This document shows positions 15,226-24,242 of a stretch of DNA of 45,615 nucleotides, piece by piece. This DNA comes from Candidatus Gastranaerophilales bacterium. Lineage in GTDB: Bacteria; Cyanobacteriota; Vampirovibrionia; Gastranaerophilales; Gastranaerophilaceae. The notes under the pieces are model-generated. The model was not told the DNA's origin, made no database searches, and was given only the letters and a program-made list of their open reading frames with translations. The DNA lies in NCBI GenBank assembly GCA_944323725.1, contig CALUTP010000042.1, positions 1 through 45,615 of the forward strand, written 5' to 3'. Both the position numbers and the translations under genes were made by a program. How positions within the stretch are numbered: the stretch's first letter is position 1; the number at the start of each line of letters is the position of its first letter.

Positions 15226-15253
15226 TTGATATTTATAAAAAATAGTTTATAAT
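15226..15253 (+). promoter_or_regulatory. Promoter of poly-G pilin gene, copy 1
   Basis: TTGATA at 15226-15231, 16-base spacer with a 6-A run, TATAAT at 15248-15253, then the site TTGGAGG before a GTG start. Copy 2 has the same elements with a 17-base spacer and a 9-A run. Confidence 0.65.
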
Positions 15254-15407
15254 AAATATATAAGATTGGAGGTACAACGTGAAAACTCAATATACAACTA
15301 GCTTTCAGATAGGGGGGGGGGGGCTATTGCTTCCATAAAGGCTTTACTTTAGCAGAAGTTTTAATTACTCTCGGTATTATTGGTATTATTGCGGCTATGA
15401 CTTTGCC
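15237..15407 (+). repeat. Direct repeat, copy 1 (-10 box, RBS, leader, prepilin motif)
   Basis: 171 bases, matching 16108-16276 except for the G-tract length (12 versus 10) and one T/C change (15375 versus 16244). It covers the -10 box, Shine-Dalgarno, GTG, leader codons and the conserved hydrophobic pilin N-terminus, and ends sharply where the two proteins diverge. Confidence 0.9.
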
Positions 15408-16029
15408 TAATATTGTTGGGAATTACAAAAAAAAAGTTATAGAAACAAGATTACAAAGATTTTATTCTGTTGCTAATAATGCACTTAAAGCTTCCGAATC
15501 TGAAAATGAAAGTTGGGATTTTTGGTACTTTGAACCAAGCAATACTGGTGAAAATACTAAAAAATGGTACGATACTTACCTAGCAAAATATTGGAAAACT
15601 GCTAAAGTAGAAACAATTAATGATGGATTCGTTGTAGCATATTTTCCTGATGGAAGTCTTGTTGTCATTAAATCTGGAATGGATTATTTTTATTATCCTG
15701 ATGCTAAAAAATTTAACAAAAATACTTTTGCAACTAAAAGGATGTCTCAATATGGAAAGGATATTTTTGTATTTGCATTTAGACCACTATTAAAAGGTTA
15801 TTATAACCAATTCTATAAAAAAGGAATTCAGCCTTATCTAGCAGTAAAATCAACTATTGATGATGATGGTAATGTAAAATGGGAAGGTAGCTTAACTGAA
15901 GCAGATTTATATACTGATCCTGTTTATGGTTGTTATAAAAATAATAAGTATGGAGGAGCTGTTTATTGTACTCAAATCATTTTCCTAAATGGCTGGAAAA
16001 TTCCAGATGATTATCCTTTTAGATTTTAA
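15279..16029 (+). CDS. Type IV pilin-like protein, frame interrupted at a 12-G tract (copy 1)
   Basis: Starts at GTG 15279, seven bases after GGAGG, and reads MKTQYTTSFQI before 12 consecutive G. With 12 G the frame meets TAA at 15336-15338. With 11 G it would continue as GGGG, YCFHK, then the prepilin cleavage motif GFTLAEVLITLGIIGI and reach the stop at 16029 as 249 residues. The mature part has Trp/Tyr-rich sequence, a DGSLVVIKSGMDYF strand, the family segment QYGKDIFVFAF, a CYKNNKYGGAVYC cysteine pair and a GWKIPDDYPF end. It should be an inner-membrane/pilus-assembled surface subunit. A later in-frame ATG (15397) would drop the cleavage motif and is unlikely to be functional. Either the gene is phase-OFF or the tract is mis-assembled. 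Confidence 0.8.
15312..15323 (+). repeat. Poly-G homopolymer, 12 G, in pilin leader (copy 1)
   Basis: Twelve consecutive G in a very AT-rich context, between codon 11 and the prepilin cleavage site. 12 G is out of frame and 11 G is in frame. Typical form of a slipped-strand phase-variation tract. Confidence 0.9.
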
Positions 16030-16095
16030 ATTATATAGCTACAAAAGTAACTAAAATTATTTTTATATAAAAATCTTATATATTTAACTAAATTA

Positions 16096-16124
16096 TTGAT
16101 AAATAAAAAAAAATAGTTTATAAT
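16096..16124 (+). promoter_or_regulatory. Promoter of poly-G pilin gene, copy 2
   Basis: TTGATA at 16096-16101, 17-base spacer, TATAAT at 16119-16124, the same layout as copy 1. Confidence 0.65.
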
Positions 16125-16276
16125 AAATATATAAGATTGGAGGTACAACGTGAAAACTCAATATACAACTAGCTTTCAGATAGGGGGGGGGGCTATTGCT
16201 TCCATAAAGGCTTTACTTTAGCAGAAGTTTTAATTACTCTCGGCATTATTGGTATTATTGCGGCTATGACTTTGCC
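16108..16276 (+). repeat. Direct repeat, copy 2
   Basis: 169 bases, the partner of 15237-15407, in the same orientation about 870 bases away. Recombination between the copies could delete or swap the intervening pilin body. Confidence 0.9.
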
Positions 16277-16904
16277 AAGCATTATTCAAAGCACTAGAAA
16301 CAAAGAACTCCACGCTCAACTTTTAAAAGCTTATTCTGCATTAGGTCAGGCTATTAATATGTATCAGGCTGAAAATGGTTTACCTATAAATCGAACTGAT
16401 TTGGGTGGAAGACAAATAAAAAATATTTTAATGAAATATTTAAAAACAGTTAAAGATTGTGGCATGGGTGATGTTGATGCAGAGACAGCTTGCATTCCTA
16501 ATAAAGGATACCTTGAAAACCCAAATAAAGTTGAAGATATTTATAAACCATATGTTGGTAATACTAATATTTTAACAAGCCGAATAGATGATGGTCAATT
16601 TATTTTAAACGATGGCATGCTAATATTGATTGAAGATCCTATGACTAACTCGACCAGTAGCTTATATATTTCTGTAGATGTAAATGGATTTAATAAGAGA
16701 CCAAATAGATTAGGTCAAGATTTATTTATGTTTCAACTACACAAAAGCAATGGGAAACTACTTCCAATGGGAGCTGTTGACACAGATTATTATGATAAAA
16801 ATAATAAATATTGCACTACTACTCGAAATGGGGAATTTATGAATGGAGCCGGTTGTACAGCAAAAGCACTCTACGATAAAAACTTTTGGAAAAATTTACC
16901 ATAG
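16150..16904 (+). CDS. Type IV pilin-like protein, frame interrupted at a 10-G tract (copy 2)
   Basis: Same GTG start, Shine-Dalgarno and first codons as copy 1. With 10 G the frame reads through GCTATTGCTTCC and stops at a TAG within the would-be FTLAEV codons. With 11 G it would run GGGG, YCFHK, GFTLAEVLITLGIIGI to the stop at 16904 (251 residues). After the repeat the body is unrelated in detail to copy 1: ARNKELHAQLLKAYSALGQ-type helix, a Cys pair (DCGMGDVDAETAC), DGQFILNDGMLILIEDP, the family segment VDVNGFNKRPNRLGQDLF, then a CTTTRNGEFMNGAGC loop. This layout is the common pilin-like one of the group. An in-frame ATG at 16266 exists but lacks the cleavage motif. Confidence 0.8.
16183..16192 (+). 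repeat. Poly-G homopolymer, 10 G, in pilin leader (copy 2)
   Basis: Ten consecutive G at the same place as the 12-G tract of copy 1. One G short of the in-frame length. Confidence 0.9.
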
Positions 16905-16912
16905 CTTAGTTT

Positions 16913-17197
16913 TTGCCTTGTGAAAATAAACCCGCAAAATCTTTATTAAATGGGTTTAAAAAAACAAATCAATATGGAAGAGATGTATTTACATTTACAA
17001 TTCAACCTGAAAAAAGATTTGTCCCTGCTGGGGTAGGGTATACTGCTGATATAAGCGGATCTAGTGGTTTTGACAGAGATTGGTTTATTAACGGGGGGAA
17101 CTCTAGAGGTTGTAATAAATCTCAAAATGGATTTTATTGTGCTGCCTTAATTATGATAGATGGCTGGGAAATTAAAGACGATTATCCTTGGAAATAA
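16913..17197 (+). pseudogene. Headless C-terminal pilin fragment
   Basis: The open frame begins three bases after an in-frame TAG (16907-16909) and has only a TTG as possible start. It encodes NGFKKTNQYGRDVFTF, a loop, CNKSQNGFYC and the end DGWEIKDDYPWK. These match the C-terminal third of copy 1 (QYGKDIFVFAF, CYKNNKYGGAVYC, NGWKIPDDYPF) but differ in most residues. There is no prepilin N-terminus, ribosome binding site or promoter. It looks like a truncated third pilin, or a silent donor for recombination, left directly behind copy 2. Confidence 0.7.
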
Positions 17198-23459: not shown

Positions 23460-24242
23460 TTATTTACAAGTTTTCTTTCCTTGCCAAGATAGACCATCAC
23501 AATATAAATAATCTAAATTATTATTATAAAGTACCCAAGCACTACAACCATATCCTTTACTTGATTTTGAGCAAGTAGAGAATGGCATAACATAATTTTC
23601 TGATTCGCTGCCTGTTGGAATAATACCATATTTTGTCCAATAAAACACAAAAATATCCCGTCCATACGTATTGGGCTTTTGCTGTGCATTAACATCAACC
23701 ATAATCTCAAAACATACACTTTTCAATGCGTTATTAGAACCTCTTCTTATTGAACAATCCATTGCCTGCCCTTCATCCTTATTAGCTCTTATTGTCATTC
23801 CATCAGGTGTTATAATTGACTTATTCCCGGCTCTCCATCCCGAATTACCGTCAATCTGTCCATTCAAATAGTAATATCCTTTTGCCTGACAGTCTGTACA
23901 AAGACCTAATGATTTCAGAGATTCAAGCATAACATTCTGCAGCGTGGCAGAAAGGTCAACACTTCCGCCGTCTTCTTTATACACTTCCGGCCACTGGTCA
24001 GGAGAAACCCCGTATTTTTCCGAGGCAATTGTATAAATTTGGGACAACACAGAATAAGCCTTTTTGAGACGGGTTATAGTCACTTTTTCGTTATACTTAC
24101 CAACAACTGATGGCAGCGTCATGGCAGCCACAACACCGATTATCCCAAGCGTTATTAAAACCTCTGCCAAAGTAAATGCAAATTTACAATTACCGCCGGA
24201 TAGGGGAGCAAAAACTTCTGCTAACGTGAACCTTCTATTCAT
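23460..24242 (-). CDS. Type IV pilin-like protein with a doubled FTLAEV segment
   Basis: 260 residues. The N-terminus reads RRFTLAEVFAPLSGG, then FAFTLAEVLITLGIIGV: the prepilin-like hexamer FTLAEV occurs twice, 18 residues apart, only the second leading into the hydrophobic helix (GIIGVVAAMTLPSVVG). The second motif is preceded by A rather than the canonical G. The body has the group pattern: helix VTITRLKKAYSVLSQIY, a Cys pair LCTDC, SIITPDGMTIRA, VDVNAQQKPNTYGRDIFVFYW and a Cys-containing C-terminal loop. Strong Shine-Dalgarno AAGGAGG with a TATAAT just upstream. It is a likely surface or pseudopilus subunit. It lies at the left end of a segment of raised GC and is divergent from an Xre regulator across a 30-bp palindrome. 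Confidence 0.82.
   Translation of the reverse strand: MNRRFTLAEVFAPLSGGNCKFAFTLAEVLITLGIIGVVAAMTLPSVVGKYNEKVTITRLKKAYSVLSQIYTIASEKYGVSPDQWPEVYKEDGGSVDLSATLQNVMLESLKSLGLCTDCQAKGYYYLNGQIDGNSGWRAGNKSIITPDGMTIRANKDEGQAMDCSIRRGSNNALKSVCFEIMVDVNAQQKPNTYGRDIFVFYWTKYGIIPTGSESENYVMPFSTCSKSSKGYGCSAWVLYNNNLDYLYCDGLSWQGKKTCK

Follow-up and report, generated by a model that had tools for sequence, protein, structure and literature searches.

Campylobacter, Helicobacter and Neisseria have phasomes in which many G/C homopolymer tracts lie in surface genes and slippage within a tract sets the reading frame. The tracts of these phasomes are found in genes of many kinds, among them genes for glycans, restriction and adhesins. 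The known system closest to the genes considered here is Neisseria pilC, which is pilus-associated and undergoes poly-G phase variation, being switched by an in-frame run of 9-20 G, as related in PMC5953494, citing Jonsson 1991. Neisseria also has the pilE/pilS system, in which silent pilS copies are donors to one expressed locus (PMC5953494), and in Listeria inlA a poly-A tract at the 5' end of the gene truncates the protein after a few residues, and an insertion restores the frame (PMC2831843).

The genes described here were recognised in DNA of a Candidatus Gastranaerophilales bacterium, within a stretch of 45,615 nucleotides that was analysed as a whole and is referred to as the window, and were then followed through its source genome and related genomes. 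As in pilC, a G-run within the reading frame of a pilus-related gene would set the ON or OFF state. Whereas pilC encodes an assembly/retraction protein and is present in one or two copies, the run is here found in subunit-like genes, up to 76 of them, and sits before the prepilin cleavage motif. The varied pilin repertoire in one genome and the signs of copying between pilin genes resemble pilE/pilS, although each gene here has a promoter-like box, a ribosome site, a start codon and a poly-G tract, in place of silent donors and one expressed locus. Many G tracts per genome in surface genes also recall the phasomes, but 37 of the 41 tracts in the source genome serve one gene family at one position. 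With inlA there is in common a 5' homopolymer in a surface-protein gene and a frame-dependent truncation, whereas inlA is a single gene with a poly-A tract and no repertoire. The mechanism is already known; the target, the scale, the off-by-one bias and the possible coupling to an attenuator are not. No report of phase-variable pilins in the Gastranaerophilales group was found in the literature searched, which is weak evidence of novelty since this covered open-licence papers only.

The pilin-like pair between etfA and purA

The interval between etfA and purA in the window holds two pilin-like genes, copy 1 and copy 2 (Table 1). An earlier note on this DNA had claimed that both have GTG leaders put out of frame by runs of 12 and 10 G, and on recheck the positions, lengths and frames were all correct. 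At 12 G the product of copy 1 is VKTQYTTSFQIGGGGLLLP followed by TAA (19 aa), and at 10 G that of copy 2 is 23 aa with a TAG stop, which are the stop codons that had been named. Recomputation also agrees with the rule that the ON lengths in both copies are of the type 3n+2 (11 or 14 G) and that 11 G opens both, giving 21 + 228 = 249 residues for copy 1 and 21 + 230 = 251 residues for copy 2. The 75 nt 5' of the tract are identical in the two copies and the first 84 nt 3' of it contain one difference, so that the tract itself is the main difference between them. The body of copy 2 has a syntenic counterpart without a G-run in a sister species (G426), and the leader was therefore probably copied onto copy 2 in the lineage of the window.

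Table 1. Features of the etfA-purA interval, in positions of the window
Feature	Position	Strand	Basis or remark
etfA end	15209		flanks the pilin-like pair on one side
Copy 1 promoter-like sequence, TTGATA, 16 nt, TATAAT	15226..15253	+	sequence; consensus match only
Copy 1 Shine-Dalgarno, GGAGG	15268..15272	+	sequence
Copy 1 leader, GTG start, VKTQYTTSFQI	15279..15311	+	sequence; leader of this type also in sister species G426 and G430
Copy 1 poly-G tract, 12 G, OFF (ON number 11 plus one)	15312..15323	+	sequence
Copy 1 pilin-like body, GFTLAEV to stop, 229 codons	15340..16029	+	Pfam DUF6613 after the N-terminal motif; purifying selection against orthologs; model with long N-terminal helix
Copy 2 promoter-like sequence, TTGATA, 17 nt, TATAAT	16096..16124	+	sequence; consensus match only
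Copy 2 Shine-Dalgarno, GGAGG	16139..16143	+	sequence
Copy 2 leader, GTG at 16150, same as copy 1 leader	16150..16182	+	75 nt upstream of tract identical
Copy 2 poly-G tract, 10 G, OFF (ON number 11 minus one)	16183..16192	+	sequence
Copy 2 pilin-like body, GFTLAEV to stop, 231 codons	16209..16904	+	sequence; syntenic G426 counterpart without poly-G leader
purA start	17289		flanks the pilin-like pair on the other side

Right after copy 2 (16916-17197, + strand) a pilin-like gene is represented by its 3' end only, with no promoter (..NGFKKTNQYGRDVFTF..GWEIKDDYPWK and a stop); this is probably the remnant of an earlier gene at the etfA-purA locus. Elsewhere in the window (23460-24242, - strand) a pilin-like protein has its FTLAEV motif doubled (MNRRFTLAEVFAPLSGGNCKFAFTLAEVLITL..). 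A similar doubled motif is present in locus L175, and isolated FTLAE decoys occur in L342 and L352. Searching the window and a subset of the tract loci against Rfam gave no matches.

Several observations bear on the nature of the products. Both copies have the class III signal, consisting of G or A, FTLxE and a hydrophobic stretch (GFTLAEVLITLGIIG), while the Pfam N_methyl match is below its cut-off (17 vs 21 bits). A prepilin peptidase is present in the source genome, with PF01478 above its cut-off at C3. The predicted model of copy 1 (mean pLDDT 78) has a long N-terminal helix, residues 4-55, and a beta part. Foldseek found no significant match for this model, and in VIA-align a PAK pilin row was weak (Z 4.2, rmsd 3.7, 110 aligned), with unrelated rows scoring higher (Z 5.5). 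In published genomes of the group the set of pilus genes is reported as partial; pilA, B, C, D and T are present in a member from the termite gut (PMC5877343). The products of the poly-G genes may be assembled into pili.

Poly-G leaders in the source genome and the family

The source genome (1.91 Mb) contains 41 G-runs of at least 9, and the DNA around all of them was examined. About 0.5 G/C runs of this length would be expected in the genome under a first-order model of the window (31.6% GC), which rules out a chance origin. Thirty-seven of the runs are in pilin leaders, on the coding strand and ~30 nt past the start codon, and the pilin genes with a poly-G leader number 36. Two layouts are distinguished. 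In class A (25 tracts representing 24 genes, one being split over two contig ends) the leader could be fused in frame with the pilin: a start codon is followed by ~30 nt, the G-run, a spacer and G/A-FTLAEV in an open frame. In class B (12 tracts) a short leader ORF contains the run and terminates ahead of a pilin that has a start of its own, the contig ending before the pilin in three of the 12. A hand count of class A gave six genes ON, 16 at one G too many (+1) and two at one too few (-1), and a stricter automatic count (n=20) gave four, 14 and two, respectively. Two of the 12 class B tracts have the G number at which the leader reaches a hairpin (see below) and ten are one above it. Other FTLAE motifs were sampled in the source genome, and for 18 of the 21 the start is in frame and the leader has 3-9 residues.

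The remaining four G-runs are in non-pilin genes, two of them of glycan type. These are an RgpF-type rhamnan gene (L083:4002, G12) and a GT-D-like gene (L088:3997, G13), both OFF, and genes for a membrane protein (L090:3997, G13) and a large protein (L084:3999, G11), both ON. It is possible that these four genes are phase-variable too.

Poly-G followed by FTLAEV codons within ~70 nt is present in 46 of 146 genomes of the family. In a sample of 386 genomes over the phylum 64 had the arrangement, all of them in the family of the window, where a reversed control pattern gave no matches. Gene numbers per genome reach 76 (G188), 57 (G123), 46 (G367), 44 (G042) and 40 (G022). Named records among the matches listed are Candidatus Gastranaerophilales, Candidatus Scatousia, Melainabacteria and 'Fusobacterium sp. 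CAG:439', the loci of which match G188. The 'Fusobacterium' records (L138, L145, L146, L193, L220, L225, L228; FR9004xx) are ~88-92% identical over kilobases to the Gastranaerophilales genome BRZ_EH__bin71 and are probably misnamed. Leader swapping between G188 and CAG:439 at L138/L133 was considered and is not claimed, as the differences are largely those of one diverged syntenic region.

A Shine-Dalgarno sequence and a start codon are present in nearly all leaders surveyed. Between the tract and FTLAEV the pilin frame is open at 110 of 112 loci, compared with 16 and 11 of 112 for the other two frames, which indicates that the leader is kept as coding sequence even though in the assembly the majority of the genes are out of frame. 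Tract lengths differ both between species at the same locus and between paralogs, these being the two kinds of comparison covered. The earlier note had proposed a search of relatives for the same leader with other G numbers. At the etfA-pilin-purA locus of the sister species G426 the GTG leader is a related one and has 10 G, leaving a frame of 251 codons open (ON); in G430, also a sister species, there are 13 G and the frame is closed (OFF), and G010 has a short ATG leader and no G-run. In G042 the leaders are near-constant in length and have 9, 10 or 11 G; 14 of 33 are ON, 13 are at +1 and six at -1. Sixty-one of the 76 genes of G188 were read: 59 are one short, with 10 G, and both of those with 11 G are exactly ON. 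A +1/ON minority that appeared in G188 with a short start window was gone once the window for starts was widened to 140 nt upstream.

ON and OFF genes coexist within the same genomes, and ON-length alleles are found in most genomes. Over eight genomes 32 of 196 genes are ON, which is rarer than one third, and the fraction per genome ranges from 3% to 42%; since paralogs share ancestry, tests against one third each overstate significance. The direction of OFF is nearly constant, at -1 in G188, CAG:439 and G022, and at +1 in Scatousia and in the two genomes of the window's genus. Changes in the tract and in its flanks were also counted among close paralogs, of which there are few pairs.

Decay of the pilin bodies, which would make these dead genes, was another outcome that had been foreseen. 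Where enough sequence is present, the body reaches 180 codons or more in 170 of 175 OFF genes. Compared with orthologs, dN/dS is 0.09, 0.15 and 0.18 for copy 1 and 0.25 for copy 2, values that are rough because synonymous sites are near saturation. With bodies intact and under purifying selection, the OFF genes are not dead, and this explanation is ruled out.

Hairpins behind the class B leaders

In the pyrBI attenuator of enterobacteria a leader ORF runs into a hairpin like that of an intrinsic terminator, translation can prevent termination, and the level of UTP is sensed. Class B, and class B only, resembles pyrBI in that a leader ORF overlaps a terminator-like hairpin ahead of the structural gene. 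It differs in that the outcome would depend on the frame set by the G number, and not on UTP. A hairpin with a T run behind it is found ~40-90 nt 3' of the tract at 11 of the 12 class B loci, and is stronger than in at least 39 of 40 shuffles; a simpler hairpin scan reported it for L095 and not for L080. At the ON number the leader ORF has 35-46 residues and extends into or through the hairpin, and in the main family of class B it stops at GGC TGA TTTTTT on the 3' arm. At the other two numbers the stop is 7-22 nt past the tract, and only the ON number reaches the hairpin. It is possible, as a hypothesis, that class B represents a putative translation-coupled attenuator with a phase-variable leader; we word this cautiously because most of the loci share one ancestor and at least one of them (L094) has a promoter-like box past the hairpin.

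A longer-gap layout, in which a poly-G leader ORF is followed by a pilin, is found in 34 of 146 family genomes. Several of the spacers carry a promoter-like box, and so not all of these loci are attenuators. In G068 and G058 a TTGACA-TATAAT-like box lies in the spacer that separates the leader from the pilin, as though what follows the leader were an entire pilin gene, promoter included.

Probable slippage in DNA and the alternatives

We consider it probable that these genes form a very large prepilin repertoire, mostly OFF by one G, that undergoes slipped-strand phase variation at the DNA level. The leader of each prepilin-like gene has a run of ~9-13 G, to which replication slippage would add, or from which it would remove, a G. 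One length in three brings start codon and pilin into one reading frame (ON) and the remaining two give a peptide of ~15-25 residues (OFF), and the Gastranaerophilales family would have expanded this switch to repertoires of up to 76 genes per genome. The evidence consists of the anatomy of the leaders, their frames, their breadth, the length differences among paralogs and sister species, and selection on the bodies. It is further suggested that the tract differences arose by reversible slippage within a population, and that ON genes, but not OFF genes, are expressed. A phase-variable pilin system was also the reading offered in the earlier note, and it gains support from the other tract lengths in relatives and the intact OFF bodies, the scale being larger than the pair (36 genes here, up to 76 in relatives). 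Since a minority of genes is ON in the assembled genome, each cell could display few of its pilins at a time, and not always the same ones.

These data are not what free random switching would produce, because ON genes make up less than one third and the direction of OFF is near-constant in some genera. MutS (MutS_I) was found in 144 of 146 family genomes, which rules out its loss as a driver and means that slippage should be damped. The scarcity of ON genes might reflect either biased slippage together with a favoured OFF state, in which few pilins are ON per cell, or expression that depends in part on slippage at the RNA level. A more speculative extension, which we hold only tentatively, is that whole repertoires across the family are a device for sparse expression, kept one G off in a direction specific to the lineage, from which each cell turns on a few genes. 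Two couplings would be used, fusion of leader and pilin in class A and entry of ribosomes into a terminator in class B, the latter amounting to a phase-variable transcription attenuator.

It could also be argued that recoding takes place at the RNA level, with RNA polymerase or the ribosome slipping on the G-run, so that genes one G off are expressed at a low, set level and the constant offset is itself the functional state. Such an offset is seen in the 59 of 61 G188 genes that are one short, with the tract in each of its three possible phases to the frame, in seven of seven CAG:439 genes (one short) and in 16 of 19 G122 genes (one over), and purifying selection on genes that are OFF in the DNA would fit as well. 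This nevertheless seems unlikely, as the offset direction differs among genera, for all of which one ribosomal shift would be insufficient, ON-length alleles are present in most genomes and at the orthologous locus, and lengths differ among the near-identical leaders of G042. We regard as more doubtful still the idea that OFF bodies are kept as donors for recombination into a few expressed loci, with the poly-G leader incidental or serving only to damp expression. Signs of copying are not lacking: the leader of copy 2 appears to derive from copy 1 and is missing from the G426 counterpart, a promoterless pilin fragment follows copy 2, and L103 and L105 share 161 nt at 98.8% identity from the tract onward but differ in their leaders. 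Silent cassettes as in pilE/pilS, however, are donors without promoter and start that serve one expressed locus, whereas both window copies have their own promoter-like box, Shine-Dalgarno sequence and start codon, and an unbroken G-run has been retained in dozens of genes with the leader frame kept open. The least probable account, to which we give very little weight, is that errors of assembly or sequencing in G homopolymers make open genes appear closed. The genomes are all metagenome or draft assemblies, long homopolymers are prone to error, and SIG30 contigs have only ~5x coverage. Error would not, however, yield one exact length in 59 of 61 G188 genes and the opposite offset in other genera, nor could it create the runs or their placement (37 of 41), and separate records of related genomes (G188 and CAG:439) agree. 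The earlier note had named this source of error; it was tested as far as possible, and is hard to invoke because tract-length patterns within a genus match across separate assemblies.

If slipped-strand phase variation in DNA is the correct explanation, a widespread and mostly uncultured gut lineage next to the cyanobacteria would have a very large phase-variable surface repertoire drawn from a single gene family, and the annotation of Gastranaerophilales genomes would miss or truncate many pilins. It would then become a testable matter why such a repertoire is kept almost wholly OFF and one step from ON, and whether slippage can drive a transcription attenuator.
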